A stretch of 64,000 bases of DNA from a bacterium F11. GTDB lineage: Bacteria; Elusimicrobiota; Elusimicrobia; F11. The first letter of the stretch is position 1. Every line of letters starts with the position of its first letter. The notes under the pieces were generated by a model that was not told the origin of the DNA, made no database searches, and saw only the letters and a list, made by a program, of their open reading frames with translations. Location: positions 52,208 to 116,207 of the forward strand of contig MSYE01000111.1 in assembly GCA_002176905.1 (NCBI GenBank), written 5' to 3'. Both the position numbers and the translations under genes were made by a program. Below, piece after piece: positions 15,655 through 46,885 of this stretch.

Positions 15655-15708
15655 TTACAACTAATTTACAGATCCTTAAGGAAATCTTAAGACCCCTTCA
15701 GCTAGAAT
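15655..15708 (+). promoter_or_regulatory. Four-repeat operator and -10 upstream of giant gene 1 (PhoB/OmpR-like)
   Basis: Half-sites TTAC (15655), TTAC (15666), TTAA (15676) and TTAA (15687) are spaced 11, 10 and 11 bp. A -10-like TAGAAT lies at 15703-15708, 16 bp after the last half-site, and no -35 hexamer is visible. The same 37-bp pattern occurs at 40110 and 46833. Direct repeats of about 11 bp in place of the -35 are the hallmark of PhoB/OmpR-family activated promoters. Just after it, ATTATCTT/AAGATAAT (15709-15730) can form a hairpin in the leader. Confidence 0.7.
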
Positions 15709-15760
15709 ATTATCTTGATGAAAAGATAATTAAACCAGCTGATTTAGAGGGAGTTTTGTC

Positions 15761-18700
15761 TTGCCGAGAAGATCTTATCTTAAGTTGCCCGCCATCCTTT
15801 TGTCATTGTTGTTTTTTGCGACGAATTGCGTCTTTGCGAACGTGGCCGAATCCAACTTTTGGAAGGAAAGGAAAAAGGCCATAAAACTAACCCGCTTGCC
15901 AAGCCCCCACCTTGGCGGTAGTGGCTCTCTCTTTATTGATAAATTTCCTCAGCTCAAACCCCCTTCTTCTATAAAAGCATTACCCAAGCGTATCCAGGAA
16001 GGTCTACCTTCCAAAATTGATCCCGCCTTGAAATCGTTGTTAACCGATATTCCCTATCAGTATGGATCCATTCGCAAGGTGAATATTCCAAAGAATCCAA
16101 ACGGAAAAATCATTTTGCAAATTCAAGATGTGCATATGAATCACGAAGCCCAAACCAACATCGGTAACATGGTCGAGGAATTAATTAAAAAAGATCAATT
16201 GGATCTTATTGCTCTTGAGGGGCATCATGGGGATTTCAAGTTAAAACCTTTTCAGCATTATTCCAACAAGGCCGTTGTTAAAAAAGTGGCCAATTTCCTA
16301 ATTCAGTCAAACAAAATCACCGGTCCCATATATGTTGGCCTCACCAGCCAATATAATACGCCCCCCATTATCGGAGTTGACGATCCTCTTCACTATGGGG
16401 CTAATATTGAAGCCTATCGCAAATCTTCGATGCACATGGATGCCTACCAAAAACAAGGTATTGAGACAGAAAAAGAGTTGGAAAAGGAGAAAAACGATGT
16501 TTTCAATTCCAATCTGAAAGAATTTGATAAGAGAGTGGGGGAATACCGTAATGGATTGCTGTCCCTTGGGCGTTTCGTCCAGCTCATCGCTCAATCAAGT
16601 TCTTTAGATGAATACCCGGCAGCTAAGATATTCGTTGAAGCCTTTACGCTTGAATCAAGGATGGATTTTCGGAAGTTGGAATTGGAGAGATCTCGACTCA
16701 TAACAAAATTGGTTGAAAACCTAGATGAAAAAACCCTATCTGAATTGACCGCCAACAGCATCGCTTACCGAACCAATCAAATGCATCATGCTGATTTTTA
16801 CCGATACCTACAAAAAATATGTCTCCAAAATAAGGTTTCTTTGGATCAATTTAAGAATATGAACAGCTACATTCGTTATGTTCTCCTTTCTGCGCAGATT
16901 GATCCGCAGAAGCTTTTTGCAGAACTGCGTCACCTTGAGGAAAGAAAATACGCTGAAAAAATTCAAAATTTGCATGAAAGAACCCTGGTTCACAAAAGCC
17001 GACAATTGCATTTGACGAAGAAGTTGATTGATTTCTCGCTCACCAGGGAAGAATGGGCGGAATATTCAAAGGGAGAGAATAGCTCGGCATTTGATCATCA
17101 GCAGATGTCTTTAGCCTCTTTTGAAAAATTTTATGAAGAGGCCATTCTTCGAGATAAGGCCATCTCCGAAAATCTCGTTGAACTTATGAAGAAGGGGGAA
17201 TCTCGGATTGCTGTGTTGGTAACGGGGGGGTTCCATTCAAAAGGAATTGAAGAACATCTCGATGAAAGGGGCTTTACCTCCATTCAATTTGCACCACGAA
17301 TTGAGAGAGTAAATACCGAAAAAGGAACTGCTTATCTGTCTGTGTTTACCCAAGAAAAAACCCCAATTGAGAAACTTTTTGGTGGTCAGAAACTGTTTCT
17401 AACTTACAATCCGTTCAGTCCCGTTATCCGGTTTGAAACCGCCGGAACCATTCCTGCCGAAGAGCTGTGGTCGGCACCAGACAGAGAGAGGATCTCTCAA
17501 ATATTTGCAAAGTTGGCTCCCGGATTTGCCGATCAGATAAGGGTGGTAAAGGTAAGCGGGGGTGGTTTGGATTCCGTTGTTGAGATTTCTTTTATAAAGA
17601 ACAATGAGGACGTCGTTGAGCCCATTCAGTTGAGGATTCAGAAAGATAGAAGGGGAGATATTGCTTCTATCCAACAAGTTGAAGAAGGAGCGGAGGCCTA
17701 CGAGCCTCATGCTTGGCAATTGGTTTTGGTCGCCCTTTATAGGCAAATATACCGAATCAAATGGTTGGGTTTCGTGGCTCCTGTCTTGGAATGGCCATTA
17801 TACCGGCTTCTGCCAAAAAACGGGCAATCTTATCTCTTTTGGTTATTGGTGTTGCATCCCAATCAAACTCTTAATGATGTTCTAAAGCACTGGATTGGTT
17901 TGCATGTTATTTCTCACGCAACGTTAAAAGCGGGCCAAAAACATGTTAACCGATTTCTCTCATGGTTGGACTCGGAGTGGGCCAATATGTTGGCGCATTG
18001 GGAAATCAATCGAATTTTACCAGAAGCCCCCCAGCAGATTACGGGCTTATTAAACGAAAATGAAACCCAGGTATATGTAGAAGACCAGGACGTTGTTATC
18101 TCAGTTGAACAGAGAAAGTTTGAACACAGCCAAGCCATGAGTGATGTGTCCACCTTGCGAATGTCATCTCGGAATACCCGGATGCGGGTAATGCCAATGG
18201 AAGAGGCTATGAACCGATTGAGCATCTACAATCGATCTCATGGTAATACGCGTCAATGGAGAACGGGACAAGGCGCAGATGAGGTTATTACAGATAGCAG
18301 TGAAATTCGGTCACAATTTCGATCCTATCAGGCTTATATTGATGATGTGATTGATCAAGAGTCAGAAGCCGGTTGGGAGTTTTTTACTCTTTTTGACAAC
18401 AGCAACACATTCGGAAACCCGAACTATATCGCCTTTGTAGACGGCCTTATCTATCACGGAACCGGTATGGAAGGGCAGGATGAGTTTGTTCAAGATTTTG
18501 ATAAGCCTTTCCTTTCCTTGGTTCAATATCCTGATGGCCATGTTGAAATGGATGAAATTTATTATGAGATTGATGAAGAAGAAAGCGGTTGGACTGAAAA
18601 TTATATTTACCAAAAACGGGCAAAAGCCTATAAAGTCGACCGCATAAGTCCCGATGTTTGGACAACAGGAGAGGAGCTAAAAGGGATTCAGGCTTTTAAT

Positions 18701-21700
18701 GGTGTTCCGGTTTTGCGGGACGGGGAATCCCTGGATATGAAAAGGATAATTCGATCGGGGTACTTTTCTGATTTTCGGCATGTGGTTCATGTTCATGCGT
18801 TAAAACCGGATGGTTTGGATTTTATATCAGATAGACAAAGGAGAGAAAAAATTGAGGCCGCTCTTAAGACCGTAAAGGCAGGTCTATATTTTGGGAGTGA
18901 TCAACTTAATGACAATAGTTTCAGGAAATTGGCAGAAGCCATTGACAGCCCTGTCACTCTTAAAAATCATTTGATGGTTTCAGTTAATGGTACTTCTGAG
19001 AAGGTCCCTCTTACGCGGGCCGAGGTCAAAGAATTGTTTGAGAGAGAAGATTATCAAGAGGTCACGCACGAGCCCCAAAAGCCAGGAGAGTTTCGATTGG
19101 TGGGGTTGGACAGCGTGGATGTCTTTTTTAAGCCCAATCCCTATCCCATGCTCTTATATGGTGAAACCAATACGGGTGAGATCGTCATATCGGCTCAAGC
19201 CATTGGTGGGGCCTCAGGTCAAACCGGAATTACGCTTAGAGAAATACCAGCTTGGGCAGAAGAACACAACATTCAGACGTTGTTTATTGGCTCACAAGGG
19301 ACAGGCTCTTTATCCAATTATGCACCCCAAGGACATCGAACAAAGGGTAGCTTAAAATTGGAGTCCGTTGTAAAGGGGAGCGAAATCGCCCCCGGTTCTC
19401 AGAAAGAAAGAAGAACAACATCGTGTGCCATATGCTTTTTGGTTAAGAGAGATCCCGCCAAGCTTTATAACAAGGTTAGAGATCAATTGGCCGAAATGGA
19501 ATTCGAGGAAGAAGGATTTGGGGCTGTCCGCGAGAAGTTGGTTGAGGGTATTGGTCAATCCTATCACCTCTTTTTTACGCGGGTTGCCGACTTTTTATAT
19601 GACGTTCATAAAGCGTTGGGTTCTCTGGTGCACCGTGGACCGGACCATCATGAAGAGGTGGAAAAAACGTACCAACATTCGCTTGATGTCATTGCGAGTG
19701 TGGCGCAACTATTTTCTGTTGTTGAAGGGAAAAATCCCCCCGCTGAGAAAAAAGGATTGGGTCGGTTATCGCTCGCACATGAGGAACAGGCTTCCACCAG
19801 CTTTGACAATCTTCGCAGACTCATGGATTCCTTGAGCGATGATGCCAAACCAGAAGCAATGAATTATTTGCTTGAAACCGCTCTTTTGCATGATACTGCC
19901 AAGTATGGTGAATTATTAAATCCATCCAAACCCCATGAAATATACGCCTATGAGGTTCTCAAGGAGAGAGAATATGACGTTTCAAGAATGGTGAATGAAA
20001 TTATTCGGTTACACGTCCATTTTGGTATTACCTATAACGGTGAATTCAATCCACAGATTCTCATTGATGAAATCAATCATCTTTGGAATGAAGGTTGGAA
20101 AGAAGGAGAAATAAAAACGCTGATGACATTGACCGCTGTTTTTACGCTGGCTGATGTGACGGCTTATGGCTATGTTACCAACACAATGGTTGATCAGTTA
20201 ACGGAGATGGTTCTTGGAAATCATGATCAATCAGGCCTCTCTTTTATTATCGAAACTCTGAATCAGCCGAGCGTTTGTCAGAATTTGTCTTCAAAATTTG
20301 TGGATGTGTACGCGGCACAAATGCAGGTTGGTTTGTTGCGATTCGGAGATTTGGAGGTTGATAACTATCCTCGTGATCATTTTGAAAGAGAAATAGAAAG
20401 GGCAAAGCAGGAAACAACATCGGGAACCAACTGGAAAGTAGATACCGATGATTGGAAAGTTTTGGAAAGAATTGGAGAAATATTTGAATTTCGATATGTA
20501 AACAATCTTATCAAAGCCATCAGATTGACGAGTATTCCGGCTGCCATTAATTTTATGCGGTTGATAGTCAAAGCCGCACTTCTTCTGAAACAATCACGCG
20601 TTGTTTTTGTCGGGGCACACGGTCAACCTATCAACAAGGTTGGCGATTTGACCATTTTCTTGCGCAATCTGATCCGGCATTTGCCATATGCAACAGATAT
20701 TCGCTCGGATGATCATCGCACCTATTACCTTGTTGGGAGCGATAAAAGGCGATTGCCGGATTCTCCCTCCATTATGGTTACAAAGGTTCAGGAAAAGGAC
20801 ACCATGGTTGTTCGGTTTCCATTCTTTATATCGAAAAAAATTAAAGATGTTGTTGATTTGGGGGGAGACATTGAGGTAACGCCTTCCCTTCGAGAAAGAT
20901 ATCTTGTCAATTTGACATCGGACATCATGACTCCTTATGGGGTTACCATCCCCACAGATCCCTTAAACACCTACCAACAGACCTTTAATCCACTAACCTC
21001 CATGGTGATTGCTCAATCTATCGTTAATGTTCGCAAGCCAAAAAGGGTTATTGTCACAGCAGACAGCAGCGTCTGGGCAAAAGAACATGCCCGTTATATC
21101 TCAGGTGTATTGGCGGGTAATGATGTTGAGGTTGTGCTTTTCTCCCGGACCATGCCGTTGGGGGTACCCGCTGGGCTTATTCAGCAACAACCTGGATTGG
21201 CCGATATGGTTCTTCATCTGAATGCCGGAGCAGGGGGGCGAAATTTTGGCTTCGGGATATACACAAAAGACGGGTCATTGTCTTCAGGTGAGCTTCGGTC
21301 CATTTTTGCGGCGGATGGGGGAATCGGTGATTATCTAAGTGGAAAGGAAAATGAGCTTCACCTTAGGCCTTCGTCAATGCCAACAAAAAAATCATCGAGG
21401 AAAATTGATGCTTTTAATTATTTGTTGCCGGAAATAGATTTGGGAAAAACGCAGTCCACAACACTTTGGTTTAGTGATCCTGAAATAATGGATTCAATGG
21501 AAGATTCCTTTGAAGCGGCGTATGGGTCTGATTGGTGGCACAAATTAAATGTGGGAGTGGTTCATGAACAGAGCCCCATTGGACCCTTTGATAACAGTTC
21601 ATACCTAAATGATGACAAACGGGCCTTTTCATCTACTTTGCAAAACCGTCCCGATACCACTGCAATTATGTTAAACGCCAATGGCTCCCGATTTGGATTG

Positions 21701-24700
21701 GCGGAGAAAGTACCCACATCAGTGGGGGAACAATTGGAAGCGCTGGGAGCAGAAATTATCCGTGATGATACTTATCCCGATACGGTGATAGTCCATTATC
21801 CTCCGTTTCTCATTTGGACAATGATTGCGGCTTTGTACGCCGATGAGCACGAGAAGAATGGAGATAACAAGGCTTTTGCTGGGACTTTTCCGACCTCGGA
21901 AAATGTTAGACGAATTGCTCAGGCCAGAAGATTAGAATATTTGCCCTCTGATATTGGGGAGCCGGCTTTAAAGGCGGTGATTAATGATTATGAGGGAAGG
22001 GATGACCATAACCGGACATTGATTTCATTTGAGTCCAGCGGTAATGGCAATGGTTGGTTATCCAATAGGGAGGTTGACCGGATTGAGCGGCAGAACAATC
22101 CCTTTGCCATGGCCATGATGCTGCTTCACTTTGATCCCGCTGTTAAGGCCGATTATCACTCCTTTGGCGAATACCTTTTATCCGTACCAACCGAATTTAA
22201 CATTAATTTGTCACAGGTGAGACAAACCAATGTTTTAGAAAGTCAGGTGTCGGATGGGGCTCGGCTTCTTCAGGAAATTGAGGAGGGCCAATCGCTTGGG
22301 GATTTTAAAGTTGAACGCATTGAACAGTACTCGGAAGTAACCCGCGGTCGACGAATTTATTTGGACAAGGGAGCTGTTGTGTCTTTTTACTTTTCCTATA
22401 AGAGCAAAACAGCAGAAGATCCCACAATTCGCATCTTTGTTGATGCGCCCAACCAAGAAGTCATAAGCCAGGTTGAATCTGCGATTGGGTTGTCGTCTAA
22501 TGGGGTGGGTTTGGGGTTGGGTGTCATCCCATTTGTAAAAAATATTATTTTGAGAAATTTCCCTGTGCTTGAGAGAAACTACGATACAGACACAGCTCCT
22601 TTGATTGAAGAGATTCTTTTGCCCACATTTTTTATCCTTGCCGTATTTTTAGGCGCTTTTGGTATGGACATGTTCATGGGGACAGGCCTAATTCGATTTT
22701 TAACTTCCAATTCACCTGGCTCAATTGTTGTTCTCAATGCCCTTTACCGTGTGGGATTTATTTTAGCCCACCCGAAAAGCGAACGCGGCCCGCCCCTTAT
22801 TGCCTTTATGAACTTTGTTGTTACTTCCCTTCCTGTTTATATTGGTCTTCTCCTTAGTTTGCCAACCGTGACAATTATCCTTTTAACGATGATTTCTGTC
22901 CTGCTCGCCACAATCCTGCATGTCGATTGGAATTTAAGAGAAAAGGCTCGAGAAATGGGCCTTGTCAAAACGGACGAACCTTCAAGCGAGCCTTACCTCA
23001 TTTCTCCCGGTTTATTCGGTATGAGTCCGACTGGTGGAAGTCGGACCAAAGGACCAGGAAAATATTTATTTGGTCTTCGAAACCTTTTGGGGCGAATGGC
23101 CATGGTGTGGATGGTGCCTTCAGGCTCGACTGACACGCCTGAGAAAGCGGACAGAGGAGACGACGTTGGCTCCATTTCCCTTCCTGAGCTCTATAAAAAG
23201 GTATATGACCCTTTAACCGATATTCAATTTGATGATTGGGATTTTCAATCCATCCGGCAAAAGTTGGTTGATACGATTGGTGAATCCTATCTCGCCCTAT
23301 TTAATGCCACGGCTCAAGTTCAATATCAGGCCTTTCGTGATCAGGGAGGACAGAAGGAATGGAATGACGACCATCAGGAAAAAGTGGTCAAAGAATACAA
23401 TCATTCGCTGGATGTCCTTGCCACCGTTGTTCAATTTAAAGCCATTATGGATGGAACAGATTATGAGCCGGGTGAGAAAGGATTTGGTTTGTTGGCCACC
23501 CGACATGAGCGGCGTTCAAAGGAAAGCTTTCAGCATATTCGGACCCTTCTTAATCGTCTTTCTCCTAATGTTGATGTGAGTTTGGATTATATGTTGCAGA
23601 CATGCATTCTCCATGATGTTGCCAAATACGGAGAATACCTAAACCCGGCTAAGGGACACGAAGAAAACGGACATAAGCTCATTGTTGCCGAACGTATCGA
23701 TATTCCCGACATCTCAAAAGAGATGGTTCGTCTGCATGTCCATTTTGGAATCACCTATAACGGAGAGTTTCATCCTCAGAAATTGGTTGATGAGGTTCTA
23801 TACTTCCATAAAAAGCCTTGGGAAAAGGAAGATATCAAAACCCTTATGGCCCTGACGGCCCTCTTTACCATAGCGGATGTGACAGCCTATTCCCCTGTAA
23901 CTAATACGCAAGTCGAAAAGTTGGTAGAAATGGCTTCGGGGAATGATGAACATGGTGGTCTTTTTGAGATCATCGATGTTGTGGATAAACCATTAGAGAG
24001 GCGAGGTTTAATTCGAAAATTCAATAAACGGTTTTCGGATCAGACAATTATTGGATTGCTAAGGTTTGGGAATAAGGAAGTCGATGGATATGATGAGGAT
24101 CATTATCCTAGATTGATAAAGGGAGCCATGGAAACCGTTACCAATCGGACAGACGGAATTGTCGGAAAAAAAGAATGGGGCCTTTTAAAAGCCATTTCTG
24201 ATCTTCGTGATCTTCGCCAGGCCAATTATCTCATTAAGTCCATGCGCTTAAAGCCGGAGAATATCCCAGGAACCCTGAATTTCATCCGGTTGGTCATCAA
24301 AACAGCTCTTACAACCCAACAAACAAACCTTGTTTTTGTCAGTGCAGAAGGGCGGCCCATTCCATCGGCGGGTGATCTTACGGAGTTATTGAAAGATCTT
24401 ATCAATGATTTGCCTTTGGCGACCGACATCCAATCTGATGACCATCAAAGCTATTATCTTGTTGATAGCGCCAATAATCGGCTTCCGGACTCGCCTCTTA
24501 TGTTTGTTCGAGACGTTGAAGGGCAAAATACTCTGGTTGTTCGGTTTCCTCACTTTATTGATCCCAAACTCAAAGAAGCTTTGGAGTACGGTGGAAAAAT
24601 TACGTTGTCTCAAGAAATTCGGGAACAATATCTAGCTCCCTTGTCTGATTCCATCGTTACGCCTTACAACCTGACTATTCCACTCGGTGTAAATTTATTC

Positions 24701-27700
24701 GAACAACCTTTTAATCCGTTAACAACATTGGCGATCACGCAATCCGTTGTGAATGTTCGGGAACCAGTGAAAGTCACTGTGGCAGGGGATAGTAGCTCCT
24801 GGGCAACCGAACACAAACGCTATATTGCGGGTGTCTTAGAAGGAAATGGGATTAAGGTTAAAAATATAGAAGGCGCTGTTCCAGCAGGGAAGGCCCCATC
24901 CCATCTGAACCGCAAATCTGATCCACGGGAATTGGTCATTTATGTTAGTGAGGGGATGGGAAGTCCCAATTTTCGGGTTGAAATTTATGATAAGTTCGGA
25001 CCCTTATCGAGAGAGAAACTGGAAGATCTCTATCATAATGATGGTGGTATTAAAAGTTTTGTCGACGGCCATTCGGATACAATTCTATATACCACTCCAT
25101 CTCCTCCTGAATCTGTGGCCTATCATTTGCCGGAGATTCGAATCAGGGATAGGGATTCAACCGCGATTTGGTTTGCAGATGATCGGTTGATTGGATCTCT
25201 CCATCAATCCTTGGCCAAAGCCTATGATGAAGAATGGTGGAAGGTTCTTCGCATTGGAACCGTTCACCGAGACCGACAGTTTAATTCGTTTGGGAGCGGG
25301 TCTTATTTAACGGAAGGAAAACGTCCTTTTTCGAAAACCCTCCTCAGTCGTCCTGAGACAACATTTATTATGCTAAATGCTCCAGGATCGAGATTTGGAC
25401 TGGCTGAGAAGATTCCTTCCCAGTATGCATCTCAATTGGAAGATTTGGGTGCTGTTGTGGTTGATCAAGATCGGTCAAGGGAATCCGTTATTGTCCATTA
25501 TCCACCCCACCTGATATGGACAATATTGGCGGCATTGTACGCTGATCAGTATGCTTTTGAGGCACAGGGGAAAACTTTTGTTGGTTCTTTCCCAGTATCA
25601 TCGAACATTGAAAGGTTGGGTAGAAAACGAGGAATTCCCTATATCTCAACCGATGTGGGTGAACATCATATCGCTAAAGCGGTATCCATTCATGAGCTGA
25701 GTAGTAAAAACAAAACTTTGCTTTTCTGTGAACCAAATGGAAAGGGAAATGTATTTATGATGGATCCAGCGGTTCCCCATATTAATAAACAAGATGTTCC
25801 TTTTGATGTTGCCATGATGTTGTTTCATTTCAGCCAAACGATTAAACCCAAACATAAATCTCTGGCGGAATACCTTCTTTCGATTCCCTCCTCCTTCAGT
25901 ACCAAGCTCTATCAATACGAAGAAGTCAACAGGAAAGCCGATGAAGTGGATTCCCAAGTTAAAGGGTTTCAAGGCTTAGAAGAAGGAGCAATGGTTGGCC
26001 GTTTTACCGTTAAATCTGTGGAAAAATATTCCGCTGTCACAAACGGCCAAAAAGCAACTTTTTCAGATGGCCTTACCATTTCAATGTACTTCTCCTACAA
26101 GGGATCGAAAGAACCCACCGTTCGGTTTTATTTTGATGCCCCGACGAAGGAGATGATTGAAGAAGCGAAACAAGAGTTGGGTTTGAAAACACAGAAGACC
26201 AAGAAGCGACGTACAGATAAGGCAGTCATACCGGTGGTAAAAGAGTGGGTGACGGAATTTTACCCAAGCTTAGAAAAAAACTACGACACAAGGACCGGCC
26301 CTGTTTTAGAAGAAATTATCTTGCCAATGCTTTTTACGTTTATGATCTTTTTGATTGGCGCTGATGTAGCTTCTCTTCAATTTCTATTATCTTCAACTCC
26401 CATTCTTTGGGAAACCTTTGCCAATTGGCTTGTTACCAGCCCCGGGGTATCCTATTCGGTTATAAATACTCTCTACCGAATCGTGTTCGTTAAGGTGCAT
26501 CCCAAAGGTGACCGTCGTCCACTCCTGGTGGCATTGGTTAACTTTATCATCACATCCCTGCCTGTGTTGGTTGGGGAATATTTAAATTGGTCCATCTTCG
26601 CCATTCTTTCCCTAACAATAGGGGCTGTTGTATTGGCAACCTTATTTCATGCTGCCCTAAATCCAAGGCAGGAGGCGCAAGAAATTGGTTTTCATCTGGC
26701 GGCGGGTGGCTTACCTCGTCCAGGTTATCCTGTTGGTGCAAATCTTGGTAGCCGTTTGGTAAGAGACCTTAATAAACTAAGACCGATTGATTGGGGGAGC
26801 GATCTGCATCGGCACCTGTTGTGGATAATTAAAGCCGGATGGCTACGCGGGGGGCAATGGAGTCTTCATCTCAACCAACCTACCAATAATATTATTGAGT
26901 TTTTAACCAAAAATGAATTTGAAGAGGATGAATATTATTCTCTTATCGTTGTCTTGGGTCATATTAAAGAGGCCTTTCCTGAAAGCAAGAGTTACGGTTC
27001 GGATAAATATCGTGGGGATGACTATTTGTATCAAATTGATCGGCTTCTCTCGGTCGTTATTTACAAGGTGGGAAAAGGGCTTCTCCCACATGATCGACAA
27101 AAGAAGTTCAGGGAATTAACCGACCGGCTTGGACTGATATCGGACAGAAGGGTGAGAAAAAATCTCAGCGCCTTGAGCGACATGGATGCATGGGAGCGCC
27201 ATTTTGGTCATGGCTGGCATCACGCCAGCAAATTTGAAGATCACCAATCTGGTGAATTGGCAGAAACCACCAATTATGTTTACCAGAGAATAATGGAACT
27301 AAAAGATTGGCTGATCAGGCTTAAGGTAGGCCAGACCAAGTTGTGGGATGATCCACTCTCGTTATTTGACCAAAAAGGTGACGAGCTAAAAGAAGCCGGG
27401 ATTAATTTCGTTCCTGAAACCTTGCGCGATGAAGACCTTTTGCAATTTCAGCTGGCCTTCCTGGAAAAAGCAGCAAAGGAAGGTTTCAACGACATTTTGG
27501 TGTTTAATGCACATAAATATCTTGGTTTACCCTATCGGGATCTTCGGAATGCAATTGGACAGCTAACCTTAAGTAGAGTCGAGGAATTTGTTTCTAAGTC
27601 TATTCCGGATAGAGCAAATGATGGGGACCTTTTAAAAGAGCTCAGGGAGTTAATTCGGTACAAAGAACCAAAGCTAACTGAATTCGGGCACCCGAGAGAT

Positions 27701-30700
27701 TCAAAAGAAGAAGAGTTGAATCATAAATTTATCGTTGGTCTTCGTAAAATCAAGTCAAGATATGGTGCAAATATTCAATTTTCAATGGGACTCGATAAGG
27801 CCAATAATGGTGGTGATCAACATCTGCTCAGGTCTGTATTGGATAAATCTCAGGTTGTGGCCTTCGGTCGTCTCCCTTCAAATTATATGGATTGGAGATA
27901 CCCCAATCGGAAAAGGTTTGTGGAAGTTCACCATCGCCAACTTGCCAACAAAGATCAAGGCGTATATGACTATCACGATCAAGAACGAGCTGTGTTGTCG
28001 GTTCTCAATCACCATGTTCATGTGGATCAAGTGGATGTCCCAGGACCTTTAAGAACGCTGGGGCTTTCCATAAAAGAAAATGATGAACTCCTTGGTATGT
28101 TCGAAAACTCTCCCACGAGGTACAACCATCCCAATCCTCTTAAGAATATGGATTATATGATGGTGACCTTGGAAAAAAAGGGAGCAATCGATGGAAGGTT
28201 AGCGGCATCAGGTGGTTATCTAACGGCCCATCTTTTTTCGATCAAATCCCCTTATCTCCGATGGCTGGTTGCTGTTTTTGGCCTCATTTGGGTTTATAAG
28301 ATTGAAGCGCCCCTAATTTCTTCTTTCATTCCTCTATCCCTTGGTTGGGTTGTTTTCGGTTTTTGTTTTGTCGCATTCCATTTGGTTTTGAAGAAATTCA
28401 GTAAAGATGACGGAATTCGTGGGTCCCCTGTCGGAGAAAGTGTTCTTGGTTATGTTGCCGTGCTCAGCCTCTATATGTTGTTTCATCAGCTCGGCCATCC
28501 TTCCCTGGCTGTTCTTTCCCACCTCTTTTACGATGCCTATCTGATGAGAAAAGATTTGTTAAGACCCTTCATGGCCTTGCTTGATTATCTTCATCGGAAA
28601 ACGGGTGGATTAGAAGGTGTTATTTTCGGGTGGCCGATGATACCAATGATGAGTTATGCCCTAATAGATGGTGCCGTCAACTTGCATACCGAATGGAATG
28701 CAGAAGAGGAGTTGGGGGATGGATCTTACCTTCTTCCGAGGCGTCTTGTTAGCAAAAGTCGGTTCAAAGGACCGGAGAAATATCTTTATGGCCTACGAGA
28801 CCTTTTGCGGCGCCTGTCTGTAGCTTGGATGGTCTCTCCGGATACAACAATGGATGGGGGGGAAGAAGAAGGAGAACCGAAAATAGCCTCCCTTACTCTT
28901 CCACCAGACGTTACCGCAGAGCCCACTGTTATTGATGTCCCGTACCATGTGAAGGGGGAAGTTGATTACATTGAGGTAATGATGAATCCCTCCTTTGAGG
29001 CGCGGCAAACGGGTCCCTTTGCGAATCAGATGAGAGTGGAATTTAAGCGAATCCTGGAACGACGCCAACAGGCCAATGAACTGGGGGATCATTTTGACGC
29101 TCTTATGAAACTGGTGGACTGGAACGGGGGGACCGATTATCAGCGCGTTCATAATCTTATCGAGATCCTAAGCCGCCAACAGTTTGAAGAGGATTTTTAT
29201 TTTTATCTGATTGTGCGCTTAAGTCTCTTTAAATCCATTGTCTTAATGAGAGACTATGATGCTGGTTCGGCTTATATAAAGGATGAATTCATCGGTTACC
29301 TGAATAACATCCTTTCCGCCGTTATATATCATGTAGGTAAGGGATGTGTGAAGTTTGATCGGCAACAATCGTTCACTCGATTAATGGAACGGCTGGCTCC
29401 CCTTTCATCCCAGCTCGAACAGTGGGGTTTGCACACCCAGTTTGAGGCCTTACAAGATATGGAAACCTGGGAAAAGCATTTTGGTCAGGGTTGGCAGATG
29501 GTTGTCAAATATGAGGATCCGAATTCCAGCGTCCTTCACGTAGCAACGAATTATGTTTATCAAAAGATAATGGAAGTAAAAGAGGCGATTTTTCCCCACA
29601 GCAACGATCAGCAGAAACTTTGGGATGATCCCCTTTCAGTGTTTGAATTACAAAAACAAGAGTTAGGCGAAGCCGGGATTAATTTCATTCCTGACTCTCT
29701 CACCGATTATGATCCGCTTCAGTTTCAATTGGCCTTTTTGGAACGCGCGGCCAAAGAAGGATTTGAGGATATCTTGATCATTTCGGCTAGTCGCTATCTT
29801 GGTCTTCCCCGGAGGAGCCTTGCAAGTGCGATTGGACATTTGGCTCTGAGAAAAGTGAAAGAATTTATAGAGACACCCCTTCCGGATGATGCCAGTGATG
29901 ATGATCTTTTAAGTGAGCTTCAGAATTTAATCGGGTACGAAGAGCCAGAGATAAGTACGGTCGATTCAGGTCGATCGATGGTGAATAAAATTCTCACCCA
30001 AAGACCCGATCCGATCGAGCAGGAATTGAACCACCGGTTCCTTGTCGGCCTCCGGAAGTTGCGATCAAAATACCCCATTCGTTTCCAATTTTCCTATCGA
30101 CATGATGCGGCTTCACCCGGAGAAGAACAAAATCAACTGGGATCTGTTTCGGATAAGAAAAAGGTCGTGGTTTTCGGTCGTCTGTCATCAGCTTATATGG
30201 ACTGGGGTGTTCGGGAAAAGAAATTCATTAGAATTGAACACCGGCATCTCCTAAGACAAGATCAGGATGTTTATGATTATACAAATCAATTTCGGGCGGT
30301 TGTTTCTGGGGTTGGTCATATCGTTAAAGTGGATCGGGTCGCGGTTCCGGAAGTAGCCAAAACGGTCGGCGTACCCATAAAGGACAACTCTGATCTTCAC
30401 ACACTTTTTCTTAAAACCCCGACAAAATATACGGATTCTGGTCTCTTGAAGGACACGGATTATATGATGGTGACGATTCAGAAAAAAAGATCCGATCCCA
30501 AAGATGAAGAAGTTTCGCCAAATGACCCAAAAGGATTTGTATCTCCTCCCAATCCTTATCGATTTGTTCCCGATCCTTCAAGTCCGGCGATGGTATCTTC
30601 TGCTGGTTATCTGATCGCTCACCTCTTTCCGGTTCGGTCACCTGTTCAGCGGTGGATGGTGGCGGTCCTTGGAATGTTATGGGTTTATAGGATAGAAGCC

Positions 30701-33700
30701 TCCTATGTTTCTTCTTTTATTCCCTTTACTCTGGGGTGGGGGATGATTGCTGTTGGATTTATTGCCTTCCATCTGATATTGCAAAGCCTTAGCCAAGATG
30801 ATGGCATTCGAGGCTCACCCCTTTTCCCCAGCCTTTTTCAGCATACTTTAGTTCTGAGCTTCTATGTGGTTTTCCATTATCTTGATCAACCTTCTCTTGC
30901 TGTTTACTTACACCTTCTTGTCGATGCTTACCGAATGAGAAAAGATTTGTTAATCCCCTTGATGGCCCTGCGTGATGATGGTCGTTGGAAAACTGGGGAT
31001 TCTGACCCGGCTTCTTCCTATACGAGTTTGAATCCAGCGGTAAGTTATGCCATGACAGATGGGGATGTTAACTTGCCACCATTATTGCAAATTGAATCGG
31101 ATCCGGATTCTGTCGATGTTATTTTATCGGATGGAGATTTAAAAAAATTCAAAAAGTTTTTAGAGAAGATAGGAAAACCAATAGACAAAAACCTGCGAAC
31201 ATACAAGGGACGAACCGAAATTGTTCGTAAGATTTTTCCACTGCTGCACCCCGAGGGGGACCGGTTCTTGATTGACCAATTAGCAGGAATTCTACATTTG
31301 AGTTTCATTAATGAAGATTTTCGATTGCGAGCTATAAAGGATGTGATTGGAAATACCATAAAGCAAGGAGGAATTGTTTATAGAACGGGCAAGTTAAGTG
31401 GTGAGAATAAAGACCACTCCCCCCATTCGGCCTGGTATCCGGTTCCTGATGGAACAATTTTTATGACGAGCCAACGGTATCGCCGAAGAAAAATAGTGGA
31501 GACGGCACCTGCTACCCCTACCAATGTACCCCAGGAAAAGGCTGCAACAGTTTCGGTTACCGTTGATCAGGAAGGTCCAACTGATCCGGATGGATTAGAT
31601 TGGAGTATCTTTGGCAATGCATTGAAATTCCTTGCCATGCAGGCAGATGAAGTTGCCGCCATCAAAAGGCGAACTTTTTGTGGTTTTATGGCATTGTTTG
31701 CCCTCCTCACTGGAATGAATCCGGCTGTGAATATGGCCGCTGGGACAGCCCTCCCCACATCGGTTGGTGAACTTTTGGATAAATACGTCATATTGGCTGA
31801 CCTGGATAGATCAGAAGATCATGATTGGACCGCGAATGATAAGTCAGAAACTCTTTCTCAGATCCGATCAAGAATATTTTTAGGGAAGGAAGATCCTGCA
31901 GAGATTGATCGCTCGTTGGATCACCTTGTCAAGTCAACCGAGAGGGAAATTAAATATGGAAAAAAAGTTATGGAAAGGACTCATTTTGAATTGAGACGTT
32001 CCCTTCGTCCCTCGGAGGATAGGAATAAACAATTGGGGGATATTATGGAGCATCAATGGGACCGTACTTTTTGGAGGAAAAAAGAAAGAAATCCATTTCA
32101 TCGAACTGAGATGGATGACAACCGGTTCGATTTCTTATTTGAATTTTTAACACAAGGAGAGGTTACTCTTGAAAGCGGTGAGAAGGTTCTCATTACGGAT
32201 GAACACCAAACAGAAGCGGCTGTTCGATTTCATAACGTTATTATGGGGCAATACCAGGAATGGTTGAAAGATGAACTCCCAGTTATTATTAGAAGTTTGA
32301 GAAAGATTGAAATGGTTCGATATCAGGCGATGGTGTTGAGAAGTTACTTAGCAAGGAGGAGTACTCGCAAGGAAGATGATTCTTCATTGCCCGAATTGCC
32401 AACAATCCTCATTGACTCAGACTATAAAAATGCTCTGGAATTGGGATTTGAGAAGTTGTCGACAATATGGGATTCGAAATCGCCCTCTAAGCCTGCCAGA
32501 TTTCAATCTGTTGAGGATGTTAGAAATTCCCTGCGTTCGGTATTGGCAGCGGAGCGGTTGATTCATGAAATGGCGCACCGACCCATTCGGGTGAAAACAG
32601 ATACCGATGAAGCCAAGCTTCGCGAGATGCGAAAAGAAGAAGAGCGTATCATGGAAATTGAAGCTATGGCAAACAAAGCGGCTGTTGGATTGTTTTCTGT
32701 TAATGGAGTGAAATTGAAATCTGATGGAGGAGGTAGTCGCAATCTCATCGAAATGGCTTTGGAAGAGATCGAGGAAACTGATGTGGAACTCTACACGAGA
32801 ATTCACGCCAATCGTCGGTTTGGCACTCTACATGATCACAATCGAGCAACGGGAAAAAGTGCGGGTGTTAGAAATTTCATAAGAGAATTTGTTGATGAGA
32901 CTTATGCATCCATCTCCAATGGCTTGGCATTCTCTGATAACAAGGATAGAACCAGCAAAGGTATCATCAAACCGGTGAAAAGGTTAATTGTTGGTCTTTT
33001 TCCACAACTGAGAACGCATTACGATACGAGAACCGGCCCGGGAGTTGAAGAAGGTGTTCTGCCGATTTTTTTTTCGGGAATGGTGTTTGCTGGGGGATTG
33101 GGGATTACTCTCCTTGTGGGATTCCTTTTGTCGTCACCGGTCTCCTTGTCATCTTATAGCCAGATTTATCTGTTCAATCCCGTGGTGACCTTTTTGGTCA
33201 TGAATGCCTTATACCGAATTGGATTCGTTGGAGCCCACCCCAAAAACCAGCGTGCGCCACCTTTCATAGCCTTGGTCAACTTTGTTTTAACCTCCCTTCC
33301 TGTTGTTTTGGGTACCCTTTTCCATTGGTCAACCTCTATCACCGTTTTATCAGCTCTTGGTGCTGTACTTGTGGCTACTCAATTTCATTCTTCTTGGAAT
33401 GTGAGAGAGCAGGCAAGGGAGGATGCGATTACAGCGGTCGCAATAATAAGGATGGAGAGAAATTCTCGCTTCAATAATTGGCGGGAATTGCTTTTGCCAA
33501 GGATCGAGGCCTTCTCTTTGGACGCCTCATTAGATGATGTGGCGCTAAGGCGACAATGGACTTCTGGGGTGGCTGATCGAACCCGGTCGGATTTTGTTTA
33601 TCGGCATCAATTTCGGAAGACATTCCAGGAAGAGTGGATGAAACACAACAACTCCTATCAAAAAGAAGATGTGTTGAAAGCAATATGTGAGATGAGTGGA

Positions 33701-39331: not shown

Positions 39332-39336
39332 TATCC

Positions 39337-40074: not shown

Positions 40075-40109
40075 TCAATGATAAATGCTAATTTTGGGAC
40101 CTGCAAAAT

Positions 40110-40163
40110 TTACAACTTATTTACAAAAACTTAAGGCGATCTTAAGATGACACCAGGTATATA
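40110..40163 (+). promoter_or_regulatory. Four-repeat operator and -10 upstream of mtaB (PhoB/OmpR-like)
   Basis: Half-sites TTAC (40110), TTAC (40121), TTAA (40131) and TTAA (40142), spaced 11, 10 and 11 bp exactly as at 15655 and 46833. A -10-like TATATA is at 40158-40163, 16 bp after the last half-site. The mtaB ATG is at 40173, so transcription from this -10 would begin almost at the start codon. Confidence 0.65.
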
Positions 40164-40172
40164 CGAGGACAG

Positions 40173-41417
40173 ATGAAAATTTGGTCTTTCACATTTGGCT
40201 GCAAAGTGAATCAATATGAGACGGAACTGTTGCGGCACCGTCTCCTGGGATCGGATGACTCATCCGTGTCCCATCCTCAAGAAGCGGATCTTTGTCTTAT
40301 CAACACCTGTACGGTAACGGCTTTTGCAGATAAAGAATGTCGCCAGTTGATTCGGCGCATAACCCGAATCAATCCCATGGCCCGTTTGATTGTAACGGGG
40401 TGTTACGCAACCCGAGCGCGGGAGGAGATTCAGAATCTCTCGCCACAAGTTGAGGTTTATACCAACGAGGAAAAGGATGATCTTCCTTCTTGCTTGGGAT
40501 TTGAAGTGTCTGAAAAACCTCTTGGAATACATCAGTTTGCGGGACGGACAAGGGCTTTCTTGAAGATTCAAGATGGATGTCAGGCTCCTTGTAGTTATTG
40601 CATCATCCCGACCATCCGTCCCAATATGGTGAGCAAACCTGTTGAGCGGGTAATATCCGAAATTCAGGCCCTTTTGAAAAACGGGTATCGGGAGATTGTT
40701 TTAACAGGGATTCGGTTGGGCCTTTATCGTGGGCTGGATACCTCAGGAAACAAACACAATTTGATTCAGTTGCTTAAAAAAGTCGTGACATTGGAAGGAC
40801 AATTTCGTGTTCGACTCTCCTCTCTGGAAGTGACCGAAGTGACAGATTCTTTGATTGATTTTGTTGCCGCTCACTCAAAAATATGTCGACACTTACATAT
40901 TCCTTTGCAATCTGGTGACAGCCAAGTATTAAAAGACATGAAGAGATGGTATGGAGCTAATATCTACCGTGACAGGGTGAAAACCCTTCGCCAAACCATA
41001 CCGGATTGTGGAGTCACAGCGGATGTGATGGTGGGGTATCCCACTGAAACGGATTTGATGTTTGAAAACACAAGTGAGCTGATAAAAGAAGTTGGTCTTT
41101 CTGGATTGCATGTTTTCCGATATTCAGCCCGAACTGGTACAAAGGCTTCAATCTTAAAGCCTTTGGATCCCAAGGTGATTGCGCATCGAGCCCAAATGCT
41201 GGGAACCTTGGATCAGCAGTTACGAGGTGATTTTTACGAACGATTTCGGGGGCATCTCCGAGAAGTCCTGCCAGAGCCTTTAGGAGAAGGGTGGTCGGAC
41301 AACTATATCAGGGTCGACGTGCCCAAATCAAAACGTCATTTGGATCTTTCTCATATGCCTATCTGGTCCTCCTATTGGGAGGGGAAAAGGAGTCAGGGAA
41401 TCCCCCAAATTGTATAA
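40173..41417 (+). CDS. mtaB: tRNA t6A37 methylthiotransferase MtaB
   Basis: MtaB converts t6A37 to ms2t6A37 in tRNAs reading ANN codons. The 414-residue protein has the UPF0004 domain with TFGCKVNQYETE (typical of MtaB rather than MiaB), NTCTVTAFADKE and VTGCYATR, then the radical SAM domain with GCQAPCSYCIIP, IVLTGIRLGLY, LHIPLQSGDSQVLKDMKR and DVMVGYPTET. The C-terminal part after about residue 350 is short and the TRAM domain is weak or missing. Its upstream region carries the same four-repeat operator as the two giant genes, which is unexpected for a tRNA modification gene. Confidence 0.93.
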   Translation: MKIWSFTFGCKVNQYETELLRHRLLGSDDSSVSHPQEADLCLINTCTVTAFADKECRQLIRRITRINPMARLIVTGCYATRAREEIQNLSPQVEVYTNEEKDDLPSCLGFEVSEKPLGIHQFAGRTRAFLKIQDGCQAPCSYCIIPTIRPNMVSKPVERVISEIQALLKNGYREIVLTGIRLGLYRGLDTSGNKHNLIQLLKKVVTLEGQFRVRLSSLEVTEVTDSLIDFVAAHSKICRHLHIPLQSGDSQVLKDMKRWYGANIYRDRVKTLRQTIPDCGVTADVMVGYPTETDLMFENTSELIKEVGLSGLHVFRYSARTGTKASILKPLDPKVIAHRAQMLGTLDQQLRGDFYERFRGHLREVLPEPLGEGWSDNYIRVDVPKSKRHLDLSHMPIWSSYWEGKRSQGIPQIV

Positions 41418-41582
41418 CGGGGAGGAAAAATTGACCCGGGTCGTCGAGAATGAAGAAAATTATGTTAAAATCACATGATTAAAATCCTTCTTCTCTTTTC
41501 GATCCTCATTTTTCCTGAAAATTGACGAAGGATATTTTATTCTCAAATGACTCATTCCATTATTAAAGGTGGTGTTTAGCGA

Positions 41583-41786: not shown

Positions 41787-41835
41787 AGACTCACCAATCC
41801 CCTTCCAAAAAAACAAAAAAGAACAAGGTTAAAAG

Positions 41836-41859
41836 AAGGAAGCCCATGCCTCCTTCCTT
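41836..41859 (+). promoter_or_regulatory. Possible attenuating hairpin between rpsU and dnaG
   Basis: AAGGAAG (41836-41842) and CTTCCTT (41853-41859) form a 7-bp stem followed by a T-containing stretch. In E. coli a partial terminator lies between rpsU and dnaG and limits primase synthesis; this could serve the same role, but the stem is short. Confidence 0.35.
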
Positions 41860-41909
41860 TGTGCCATATTTTTTGAATGGAAGGTGTAACGAGGGGCGAT
41901 CCAGTACCT

Positions 41910-43718: not shown

Positions 43719-43740
43719 AACGAGGTTATGGTAAACGAAT

Positions 43741-45474
43741 ATGATCGGAAGACAACGAAACTCTCTTATAGATAACAATGTGTTAATTCAAGCCCTTATC
43801 CATCAGGGTAAAGAATCCGGATATATTACGTATGAAGAAATCATGCGTCGGCTTCCAGAAAACACAACTCCTGAAGATTTGGATAACTTTTTTGGAAAGC
43901 TAGAAGAAATTGGTATCCAGGTTCTTGAAACCGAAGATTCAAAATCGGATGTATTGGGGACGGAAGGAGCCCCTGCACCCGAAGTTGAACTCGACACCCA
44001 AAATTCCATCCGGATGTATTTGTCTGAAATGGGACGGGTGCCCCTATTAAAACGAGAAGAAGAGGTTTCTCTTTCAAGAAGCATCAAGGAACACGAAAAA
44101 GAACTTCGGCTTCTTGTTTTACAATCGCCCATCACGCTTCGTGAAATCAGCAATTGGGAAACTCTTTTGGAACAAGATGAAATGACTCCCAAAGAGCTCA
44201 TGCCCAGGGGACGGAAAACCCAGGCTGAACTCTCTCGGATGCGACAAAAAGTGAAGGTTGTGGCGAGGTCTATTTCTAAGAGTGAAAAGAAAATAAAAAC
44301 TTTAGAGCTAAAGATAGCTGATCCCAAGATAACTTTTCGCCAGAAGGCCAAAATCCAATTGAAAATTGATGCGGAGAAGAAAGACATTGTGGCCCGTATC
44401 ATAAGTCTCAACCTCAATCAGGATAAGATTAAAAGGCTCACCAACAAAATCAAGACGCTCGCAGCCAAAATCCGTGAGTGTGAAGATGAGCTGATGCGGT
44501 ATGAGAAACGTCTCAATATGCCGCATGTGGAGGCTCTTAAAATATACCAACGGGTTTTGGATAAAAAGATCAGTCAGGCGGCATTTAAGAAGTTGACAGG
44601 TTACACCATGACCGCCATTGAATCGACCATGGTCAATATGCGGAATGTGTCGAGTCGCCGAAACCGTATTCTTCAAGTTCTTCCGGTCACACGCGATAAT
44701 TTGATGGATTTGGATGCCAAAATCCGAGATCTTGAAGAGAAAATTCTTAAAAACAAACTGAAGCTCATTCGCGCCAATCTCCGGCTTGTGGTTTCTATCG
44801 CAAAGAAACATGTGGGTGCATCCAATCTGGAATTGCCGGATCTGATTCAAGAGGGAGGCCTTGGTCTTATCAAGGCGGTTGAAAAATTTGAATGGAGACG
44901 GGGTTTTAAGTTCTCAACATACGCAACGTGGTGGATTCGTCAATCCATTAACAGGGCCATTGCTGATCAGGCTCGAACGATTCGGATTCCGGTGCATATG
45001 AAAGAGATCATCTCCAAATTAACCAAAGTGGCTCGAAAATATCGACAAGAACATGGTCGGGAACCCACATTGGAAGAATATTCCAAAGCCCTTCGTCTCT
45101 CTATTGAGAAAGTGAGGGGTATCCTGAGAATTATGCAGGATCCGGTTTCCCTCTCAACCCCGGTTGGAGAAGATGAGGATTCCTATTTAGAAGACTTTAT
45201 TGAAGATGAAGGCGGAGCCGAGCCTTTTGAGGGGGCACAAGATTTCCTTCGGCACCGAGAAGTGGAGCGGGCTCTTTCCACCTTGAGTGAAAGAGAGGCG
45301 CAAATAATTCGTCTGCGGTTTGGCATTGGGACAGGATATCCCCGGACCTTAGAAGAATTGGGTCGCATCTTTAATGTGACCCGAGAACGGGTGCGTCAGA
45401 TTGAGGCCAAGGCTATTCGAAAGCTCCGGCACCCTTCCCGCAGTCGGGTTTTGAAGGAGTATATGGACGCCTAA
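43741..45474 (+). CDS. rpoD: RNA polymerase primary sigma factor (sigma-70)
   Basis: The 577-residue primary sigma factor has region 1.1-like N-terminus, region 1.2 ([21 protein letters not shown]), a long charged coiled-coil non-conserved region (about 150-330), region 2 ([55 protein letters not shown]), region 3, and region 4 with [27 protein letters not shown]. It is the last gene of rpsU-dnaG-rpoD. Consensus TTGACA/TATAAT-type promoters elsewhere in the window fit this sigma. Confidence 0.97.
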
Positions 45475-45495
45475 TATCAAATTCTCAAATCCATT

Positions 45496-45533
45496 AAGCC
45501 CCTCTTCTCTTTATTGAGGAGAGGGGCTTTTTT
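45496..45533 (+). terminator. Rho-independent terminator after rpoD
   Basis: The stem AAGCCCCTCTTCTC (45496-45509) pairs with GAGGAGAGGGGCTT (45516-45529) with one G-U wobble and a 6-nt loop, followed by a run of T to 45533. It closes the rpsU-dnaG-rpoD operon. Confidence 0.92.
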
Positions 45534-45867
45534 ATTGGGGGCAAAGTGTATATTCTGAGCTATTTTAAGCGACAACTTAAAATTAATAATAACAATGGCA
45601 TGAATTTCCCTAAAATTGAGTATAATAATGGGTCGAAAAAAAGTTTCATCCATCCAATTCCTTTAATGAAGAGAAAAGAGGGGTAGTGTGGGGCGAATCT
45701 TTAGGAATTTTCTGTAGCAGTTTGTCTATCGGGGTAATTCCTTTTTTTTCTTCAGCTTTTTGACTAAGAGTAATCCAATATTGACTGATTCTGTCGTTTA
45801 AGTCTTTTTTTTATAATTTATTCGAAAAGAACAATTTATGCCGAGATCAACCAAGTTGGAGGGCTTT
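45534..45867. other. Intergenic region between rpoD terminator and the LMTE-repeat gene
   Basis: About 330 nt without a gene. It contains a perfect inverted repeat ATTTTAAG/CTTAAAAT (45562-45583), a TATAAT hexamer at 45621-45626 without a good -35, GGAATT/AATTCC arms near 45707 and 45757, and a second TATAAT at 45812-45817. The latter is the likeliest -10 for the following gene, although the TTGACT at 45781 is 25 nt away, too far for a normal promoter. Confidence 0.4.
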
Positions 45868-46617
45868 ATGAATAATGTCATTCAAAGAAATTTGAATGTC
45901 GTTTTGCTGGTGTTCCTTTCTGTTTCTCTCCTTGTTATGCCTGGTCCCTCCCGATCTTGGGGGGAAGATTCCAAAAAACTCAATTTAAAGAATTTGGATG
46001 TTCACCAATTGCCTGTTTATCCTATTAATTGGCAGGATATCGAGAACAGTTGGGTGTGGATCTTTGGCGGTCATCTTATGACCGAGAATGAGAAATCGGA
46101 CTACATTGAAAAGTATCAAGAATTGGATACACGATCTGAACGGGCGGCCTACAAGAATGTGCATAGAAAGAAGATGATGGTCCGGATGCGCAGGTTGGAT
46201 CCTGATACCTGGGAAAGATATTACGGTCCTATTAAACCAAGGAAGGAAAAGCGTGGAAAAAAGAACAAAATAAGAATTGCCTATCCACTTGGGAATTCAG
46301 CTTATGAGCAGGAAGAAATCGCTCTGGAAGATTGGAAGAGATATTTCAATAAATTGCGCCATATCAAAAATGATTCTCAATTCATTTTTGGGGCTCATCT
46401 GATGACCGAAGAAGAGAAGAGAAGGTATTTCCAGAACTATTACGTTCTTGAAACTGTTGAGCAGCGTTTTGATTTCCGGGATCTCCATCGTTCCATGATT
46501 TTAGAAAGAGCCAAAATATTGGACCCAAGAATGTGGGAACGATATGAATCCATGAGAGCGGCCAACCAAGAAAAAATGTTTTTCGAAGATGACTTTTTCG
46601 GCAGGTTCAGTCTGTAA
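45868..46617 (+). CDS. Secreted protein with two LMTE-motif repeats, function unknown
   Basis: A 249-residue protein with a signal peptide (VVLLVFLSVSLLVMPGPSRSWG). Two copies of a roughly 60-residue motif occur at about residues 63-120 and 169-228: FGGHLMTENEKSDYIEKY then RKKMMVRMRRLDPDTWERY, and FGAHLMTEEEKRRYFQNY then HRSMILERAKILDPRMWERY. The pattern (FGxHLMTExEKxxY ... HRxxM ... R ... LDPxxWERY) recalls a short LMTxxE...H...M..RA motif common in uncharacterised periplasmic proteins of proteobacteria. A basic linker (PRKEKRGKKNK) separates the copies. The ATG at 45868 with GGAGGG just upstream is preferred over the one at 45838. No function can be assigned. Confidence 0.75.
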   Translation: MNNVIQRNLNVVLLVFLSVSLLVMPGPSRSWGEDSKKLNLKNLDVHQLPVYPINWQDIENSWVWIFGGHLMTENEKSDYIEKYQELDTRSERAAYKNVHRKKMMVRMRRLDPDTWERYYGPIKPRKEKRGKKNKIRIAYPLGNSAYEQEEIALEDWKRYFNKLRHIKNDSQFIFGAHLMTEEEKRRYFQNYYVLETVEQRFDFRDLHRSMILERAKILDPRMWERYESMRAANQEKMFFEDDFFGRFSL

Positions 46618-46832
46618 AAAATACATTCGTCCACCTTGAATTCCTTCCAAAAGAAATAATTTTCATTTCTTTTCCCCGATCGCTTCCTGTTGCCAAAATT
46701 TGTCTATTTTCTTCATTTTTTTTGTTCCCTGGGCTTATCGAGAAGCCATTTTAACCCTCCTCATCATTATCAGGGAAATTTCGTCAAATTCCTTCAAATT
46801 CTTCTCTTTTACGGTATTTTCTGCCCCAATTT
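46618..46832. other. Intergenic region before giant gene 2
   Basis: No gene is seen. An AT-rich perfect stem AAAAGAAAT/ATTTCTTTT (46649-46657, 46665-46673) with a T-rich end could be a weak terminator for the preceding gene. The rest, up to the operator at 46833, is T-rich and featureless. Confidence 0.35.
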
Positions 46833-46885
46833 TTACAACTCGTTTACACAGCCTTAAGGAGATTTTAAGGTCCCATCAGTAGAAT
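46833..46885 (+). promoter_or_regulatory. Four-repeat operator and -10 upstream of giant gene 2 (PhoB/OmpR-like)
   Basis: Half-sites TTAC (46833), TTAC (46844), TTAA (46854) and TTAA (46865), spaced 11, 10 and 11 bp. The -10-like TAGAAT is at 46880-46885, 15 bp after the last half-site and identical to that of giant gene 1. The predicted start near 46892 gives a leader of about 45 nt. Confidence 0.7.

Follow-up and report, generated by a model that had tools for sequence, protein, structure and literature searches.

Introduction

In Escherichia coli, the Pho box is placed just upstream of the -10 hexamer, in the position of a -35 element. The CpxR box has the consensus GTAAA-N5-GTAAA, which reads as TTTAC repeats in the reverse complement, the RstA box has the consensus TACATNTNGTTACA, and the boxes of Bacillus PhoP and cyanobacterial SphR consist of tandem TTAACA- or CTTAAC-like units about 11 bp apart, upstream of the -10. 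Here we describe a 37-bp element of tandem half-sites that occurs three times in a 64,000-nucleotide stretch of contig MSYE01000111.1 (assembly GCA_002176905.1; bacterium F11, Elusimicrobiota), hereafter the window, upstream of two genes for giant proteins and of mtaB. The Pho box itself measures 22 bp and is made up of two 11-bp direct repeats, as the box is described in PMC3978041. Our element keeps a fixed geometry, lies before one family of giant proteins and has a restricted distribution among Elusimicrobiota genomes. Its layout and context suggest, with a probability that we put at about 0.58, that it is the operator of an activator-dependent promoter of the OmpR/PhoB type, served by a response regulator of a lineage that we call A/A'.

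Many giant bacterial proteins are known, and to our knowledge their function and control are little understood. Huge proteins are enriched in Elusimicrobiota, according to the passages on this phylum in PMC11573180 and PMC12057145. In the open-access literature we found no description of the element, of its regulon or of the protein module shared by the giants.

Results

An earlier reading of the window, made from the letters alone (the sequence-only reading), had pointed out the pattern TTAC-N7-TTAC-N6-TTAA-N7-TTAA at 15655, 40110 and 46833. All three copies are free of mismatches and lie on the + strand, their half-sites are spaced 11, 10 and 11 bp as claimed, and 29 of 37 columns are identical among them (13 of 21 once the 16 letters that define the pattern are excluded). 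The hexamers TAGAAT, TATATA and TAGAAT follow, and there is no TTGACA-like hexamer at -35. The gap of 15-16 bp given for the -10 holds only when counted from the start of the last TTAA; the actual distances from the end of the last TTAAG are 11, 11 and 10 bp. A 24-base form of the pattern, at up to three mismatches, has exactly three matches in the window and none in 100 dinucleotide shuffles. A position matrix trained solely on sites from relatives scores copies 1, 2 and 3 at 57.7, 55.7 and 44.9, compared with 1.5 for the next-best place in the window and 4.7 for the best of 10 mononucleotide shuffles. Shuffles and reversed-pattern controls together rule out a chance repeat or an artefact.

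The genome-wide check was made on relatives of the window organism. An exact scan of species genomes with a 20-base core returned 38 loci, 23 of them in one metagenome-assembled genome, Elusimicrobia bacterium PL23a_bin.39 (G001), and three in Elusimicrobia RA.bin92, fen_1173 and 'Ca. Obscuribacterium magneticum'; the last we take to be a magnetotactic member of the phylum, and a literature search for it gave no paper. At up to three mismatches G001 carries 46 sites, against 2 for the reversed pattern. Most of the 340 Elusimicrobiota genomes lack the element: at up to two mismatches 14 have a match, four of them a single one and ten at least four sites (G001 44, G163 20, G166 17, G162 15, G168 15, G164 13, G165 10, G006 8, G003 6 and G167 4). 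The nine operator genomes other than G001 hold 11-25 sites each at up to three mismatches, 167 listed in total. The reversed pattern occurs, at up to two mismatches, nowhere in the ten operator genomes and five times over all 340, and at up to three once each in G165 and G006. Random occurrence throughout the genome, which would have undone the idea of a regulon, is excluded in these relatives, with the reversed pattern near zero against tens of sites.

The remaining 12 exact-core loci fall outside records titled Elusimicrobia or Obscuribacterium: seven in or near Oscillospiraceae (one titled 'uncultured bacterium'), three in Paenibacillus and one each in Chryseobacterium and Philodulcilactobacillus. 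None of the 12 precedes a giant gene. Four loci of Oscillospiraceae and kin (L002, L014, L025, L032) sit at matching places, roughly 100 bp away from where one divergent gene starts; the Paenibacillus loci L003, L006 and L016 likewise correspond in place, with TATAAT downstream. Because of these corresponding places across species, the Oscillospiraceae-type and Paenibacillus loci may belong to other systems, as sites of other regulators with a like architecture. Loci L021 and L031 look like chance; the viral contigs searched gave 0 matches.

The window MtaB is closest, among the ten genomes searched, to those of G162 (66% identity), G165 (64%) and G164 (60%), and the window therefore probably belongs near this set; we delimit the sets of genomes spoken of here by handle order, by features in common and by the regulator tree. 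On G164 contigs C49 and C82, identical sites and frames occur twice, facing opposite ways on the one contig, an appearance that suggests an inverted duplication or an artefact of assembly.

Promoter geometry was analysed on 174 distinct sites: 46 of G001, 3 of the window and 125 of the nine other genomes. Those 125 were drawn from the 167 listed and comprise all 108 with at most two mismatches and 17 of the 59 with three; merging five register-shifted duplicates had reduced 179 sites to 174. The -10 was no part of the pattern used to find sites. A TAnnnT hexamer nevertheless starts 9-12 bp downstream in 150 of the 174, against 21 and 12 at control offsets, with starts at offset 10 in 115 sites, offset 11 in 35 and offset 12 in 14. 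The 11/10/11 spacing of the relatives' sites was part of the search pattern, and the half-site columns are conserved partly by construction, since sites were sought with that pattern. Outside it, conservation is seen at the T preceding the second TTACA, at the A that follows this half-site and most strongly at the -10, in which a plain alignment gives T at 0.76, A at 0.71 and the last T at 0.81; several linker columns are nearly free of information. The four half-sites are placed at roughly -59, -48, -38 and -27, with no -35 left.

We located the first start codon in 107 family genes that have such a -10: counted from the start of the -10, it comes 12-13 nt on in 26 genes and 10-15 nt on in 37, and the next three six-base bins hold 10, 7 and 6 genes. 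The accumulation at the predicted +1 favours the -10 assignment and suggests that many giant genes have leaderless messages. A Shine-Dalgarno-like stretch was found in none of the 37 genes with a start at 10-15 nt, against 22 of 50 with longer leaders, a comparison biased by the overlap of the stretch examined with the -10 in those 37. The pattern extends to mtaB: its -10 (TATATA) is weaker, but transcription is predicted to begin at about 40170, which is 3 nt ahead of the ATG. Tandem direct half-sites 10-11 bp apart, and their position next to the -10, where a -35 would otherwise stand, are the features expected of promoters activated by OmpR/PhoB-type regulators. The sequence-only reading had proposed such an activator; the geometry and the fixed -10 spacing bear it out, but 'PhoB-like' describes the architecture only, as the pst regions lack the site.

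Both window giants share a secreted N-terminal part of about 500-600 residues, composed of a signal-peptide-like stretch, an FWxERR-like motif and a module in which QDxH, E62, R373 and GGFH are invariant in 33 aligned rows. The segment VTGGFHSKGI, earlier taken for the N-terminus, does belong to this N-terminal module but is the GGFH end of it, lying at about residue 490, near the end of a module of some 500 residues. The module resembles the Tiki/ChaN/EreA superfamily, whose marks we take to be a core of conserved His, Glu and Arg residues and GxxH-like motifs; the module has these marks, residue equivalence being drawn by sequence and not by superposition, but falls below the profile cut-off (PF04187, 23.0 bits vs 27.7, for giant 1), and PF04187 has no match to giant 2 at E 1. 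The whole of giant 2 matches no Pfam family at E 0.001. Further on, giant 1 matches HD and PGM/PMM domains in places; inspection by eye also shows a pair of repeated blocks that carry an HD-like motif, as well as several hydrophobic segments.

The expectation that other sites would precede genes with the same N-terminal module was confirmed for 130 of the 174. In 128, the longest same-strand open reading frame (ORF) starting within 450 bp, which is not always the first, matches the giant-family model, and two more match when the site-spanning ORF is used; the model started from the two window giants and was extended with proteins that it then counted. Three sites end at a contig edge. Open frames of the family reach 10,906 residues in G009 and 12,118 in G164, where the contig shows the same match twice in opposite directions. 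In G162, the genome counted in full, 29 matches represent 28 family genes, two of them being pieces of one gene, and 18 of the 27 with a readable start have a site at no more than 4 of 20 mismatches, the reversed pattern never doing better than 6; the gene without a readable start has a listed site. The link between operator and family holds in both directions but not totally.

The module is present in 67 of the 340 genomes, at up to four candidates scored per genome outside G162. A third, more distant set of 47 module-bearing genomes (G243-G328) has it on giant frames. No TTACA pair was found upstream of the module in four of four regions read by script (G296, G313, G323, G325), among the matches listed, nor by eye in the G308 upstream region; given the four scripted regions, control may differ in this set. 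Variant sites before giants in G005, G006, G008, G009, G012, G170 and one of three genes of G169 keep the TTACA-N6-TTACA pair, exactly or with one mismatch, while the TTAAG pair is changed. From this, and from the third set without the site, the TTACA pair seems to be the older core, later elaborated into the four-half-site form.

Not all targets are giants. The sequence-only reading had proposed a regulon joining giants with a tRNA modification gene; the set of sites is regulon-like, but that description is too narrow, mtaB being one of a minority of non-giant targets and a minor member of the operator set. The others are PorV/UPF0164/PorP-like outer-membrane proteins (weak or near-threshold Pfam matches), lone receiver-domain proteins, a glycosyltransferase, fibronectin-type secreted proteins and a small Cys-rich protein, look-alikes of which (by eye) lie just before a giant gene in both G001 and G168. 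The mtaB site recurs in G164, where it has three mismatches and precedes the ATG by 30 bp (26 bp in the window), and in G162, where it is decayed but recognisable, with six mismatches and an intact TTAA pair. G165, in which mtaB comes close behind the preceding gene, lacks it, as do G168, G167 and G001, the comparison covering the six relatives with a readable mtaB start (G003, G006 and G166 have no readable start, and in G163 the contig ends). In the window an ORF resembling S21, an assignment made by eye, separates mtaB from dnaG. A simple scan found no + strand terminator-like site between mtaB and dnaG, and a strong one lies after rpoD at 45496-45529; read-through from the mtaB operator promoter into dnaG-rpoD, or a separate promoter there, is possible.

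A census of OmpR-type regulators in eight genomes, followed by a tree, placed G001 C97, G168 C12 and G162 C10 in one clade (lineage A); the candidate regulator has receiver and Trans_reg_C domains. The lineage A model scores at least 381 bits in 7 of the 340 genomes (G001, G168, G162, G170, G164, G163 and G165), after which the score drops to 271. Six of the matches that come next in score (G008, G009, G004, G007, G006 and G011), termed lineage A', form one clade with A at a support of 97/96. A copy broken near its C-terminus occurs in G003 and one cut at a contig end in G012, assigned to the same lineage by eye. In G168 and G162, the kinases examined each combine one Cache domain with HAMP and HisKA. 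The exact TTACA-N6-TTACA pair lies near the regulator gene (2.5-3.7 kb around the gene) in all six A' loci: just upstream of the regulator in five, and in G011 upstream of a neighbouring lone receiver gene. It occurs in 0 of 4 loci of another group of OmpR-type regulators (group B) and in 2 of 13 of other regulators, and the reversed-control pair in 2 of 30 regulator loci. In G001 the lineage A locus has the TTACA pair with one mismatch, and the kinase and regulator genes there lie next to a giant gene that carries the operator. No operator giant gene lies near the lineage A pair of G162.

Beside the kinase-regulator pairs of G163, G164 and G165 (L356-L358) lie convergent ORFs that are interrelated, with 30-46% identity over parts; they may be the ends of larger genes, and a comparison with the window giants gave no match. 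Downstream of giant 2, an ORF for a 23S rRNA intervening-sequence-type protein (PF05635) occupies 55635-56012.

Table 1 Features of the window discussed in the text.
Feature	Position	Strand	Remarks
Operator copy 1 (TTACA-TTACA-TTAAG-TTAAG)	15655..15691	+	Upstream of giant gene 1; 0 mismatches to the 16-base pattern
-10 hexamer TAGAAT, giant gene 1	15703..15708	+	Predicted transcription start ~15715; offset as in relatives
Giant gene 1	15761..34213	+	6150 aa; signal-peptide-like start, FWKERK motif, N-terminal module
Tiki/ChaN-like core of N-terminal module, giant 1	16034..17449	+	
Operator copy 2	40110..40146	+	Upstream of mtaB; 0 mismatches to the 16-base pattern
-10-like TATATA, mtaB	40158..40163	+	Weaker, not TAnnnT; putative position
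mtaB (UPF0004 + radical SAM)	40173..41417	+	
dnaG	41877-43718		After the S21-like ORF downstream of mtaB
rpoD	43741-45474		After dnaG
Operator copy 3	46833..46869	+	Upstream of giant gene 2; 0 mismatches to the 16-base pattern
-10 hexamer TAGAAT, giant gene 2	46880..46885	+	Predicted transcription start ~46892; offset as in relatives
Giant gene 2	46938..55262	+	2774 aa; signal-peptide-like start, FWKERQ motif, same N-terminal module
Module core, giant 2	47244-48647		

Discussion

The arrangement of two TTACA and two TTAAG half-sites immediately before a sigma-70-type -10, in the position of a -35, suggests how the element could work. With spacings of 11, 10 and 11 bp the half-sites would lie on one face of the DNA, where probably two tandem dimers of an OmpR/PhoB-type response regulator bind, and the bound regulator would recruit RNA polymerase, making its role one of activation rather than repression. 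The best candidate for this regulator is lineage A/A', of which lineage A is encoded next to a histidine kinase. The promoter heads a large family of giant secreted proteins with a signal peptide, a Tiki/ChaN-like module and varied bodies in two sets of Elusimicrobiota genomes, with PorV/UPF0164-like proteins, lone receivers, a glycosyltransferase and others as minority targets, joined by mtaB in the lineage of the window.

Several observations weigh against this interpretation. On the side of the sites, half-site conservation was partly fixed by the search itself, 41 of the 174 sites precede other ORFs or none that can be named, some lying inside ORFs, and about a third of the G162 family genes have no recognisable site. 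On the side of the regulator, the exact TTACA pair occurs in 0 of 7 lineage A loci within the stretch examined, and both reversed-control pairs fall in A' loci (one each in G008 and G009). The operator giant gene of G168 lies about 1.9 kb downstream of the kinase-regulator pair, with two ORFs between, one of which is a lone receiver that has the operator's intergenic region in common. The two regulator copies of G240 (270 and 266 bits) score as high as A' and stand outside the lineage A/A' tree, which leaves out G240 and G333. The expected co-occurrence of a PhoB-like regulator holds only in part: lineage A/A' accompanies the element in some genomes but was undetected in G166 (17 sites) and G167 (4 sites), as well as in the giant-family genomes G002, G005, G010 and G169, all of them drafts of unstated completeness.

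Another OmpR-type regulator, such as group B, could instead be the reader of the operator. Group B is present in G166, G167, G169 and G003, where intact lineage A was not found, and a G168 site with two mismatches precedes its kinase gene or cluster; yet none of the four group B loci read has an exact TTACA pair and, among the matches listed, no member was placed for the operator-bearing G006, G008 and G009. We consider such a reader unlikely, if the most credible of the alternatives. An account by copying comes next and is likewise unlikely: the promoter would have been duplicated with the N-terminal module, and what is now seen would be a strong promoter with an unusual upstream region and no common regulator. 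Common descent certainly contributes, since the promoter adjoins the shared module and 130 of the 174 sites precede one paralogous family. Copying by itself, however, would not lead one to expect spacing and half-sites to be kept over diverged copies whose linkers are near-uninformative (the half-sites being partly fixed by the search), the TTACA pair to be kept in the variants of neighbouring genomes, or the site to be carried by genes outside the family (mtaB, PorV/UPF0164-like proteins, lone receivers, the glycosyltransferase).

Because the element takes up the -35 region and keeps a constant distance to the -10, a tandem-binding repressor that blocks RNA polymerase at -35 and keeps the costly giants off could also be imagined; we regard this as improbable, as no -35 hexamer is left to block and the one strongly fixed spacing of 10-11 bp would better suit contact with the polymerase in activation. 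A phosphate (Pho) box read by PhoB is the least probable of all, despite the two 11-bp direct repeats in the description of that box (PMC3978041) and a phoU in 7 of ten operator genomes, and we reject it for G162, G168 and G001, the genomes with pst regions that were read, where no site occurs and the best matrix scores are -7.0, -28.6 and -17.0.

Activation through lineage A/A' could be part of a wider scheme, which we offer tentatively and at less than even odds. One dedicated two-component system with a Cache sensor would run most of the giants of a lineage through a duplicating cassette made up of the four-half-site operator, the -10, an often leaderless start, the signal peptide and the Tiki-like module, so that any gene acquiring the cassette would join the set; in the lineage of the window, the translation gene cluster headed by mtaB (S21-like, dnaG, rpoD) would have been captured in this way, tying the production of giants to the core growth machinery.

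A common operator suggests that some Elusimicrobiota deploy 20 to 40 giants as one coordinated set. It provides a sequence tag for finding the other members of the set, points to a candidate sensor-regulator pair, and makes it directly testable when and why cells build proteins of thousands of residues. The parts of the published accounts that treat sizes, occurrence and domains of the huge proteins of Elusimicrobiota and Omnitrophota describe no shared module, promoter or regulator (PMC11573180, PMC12057145).

Compared with known systems, the operator resembles the Pho box of Escherichia coli in its 11-bp direct repeats and its placement instead of a -35, and the candidate regulator resembles PhoB in combining a receiver with a Trans_reg_C domain. 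It differs in having four half-sites of two kinds (TTACA and TTAAG) where the Pho box has two alike, and the regulon differs from the Pho regulon in that the operator is absent from the pst genes of G162, G168 and G001 and its targets are giant secreted proteins. The CpxR and RstA boxes of enterobacteria resemble the TTTACA pair of the operator, a likeness at the level of the consensus, and they are not known to include the TTAAG second pair or the 11/10/11 layout. The boxes of Bacillus PhoP and cyanobacterial SphR share tandem repeats about 11 bp apart upstream of the -10 but differ in their units and in their phosphate-gene targets. The proposed mechanism varies a known type, and its interest lies in the object that it seems to control, much of the giant-protein set of a lineage.

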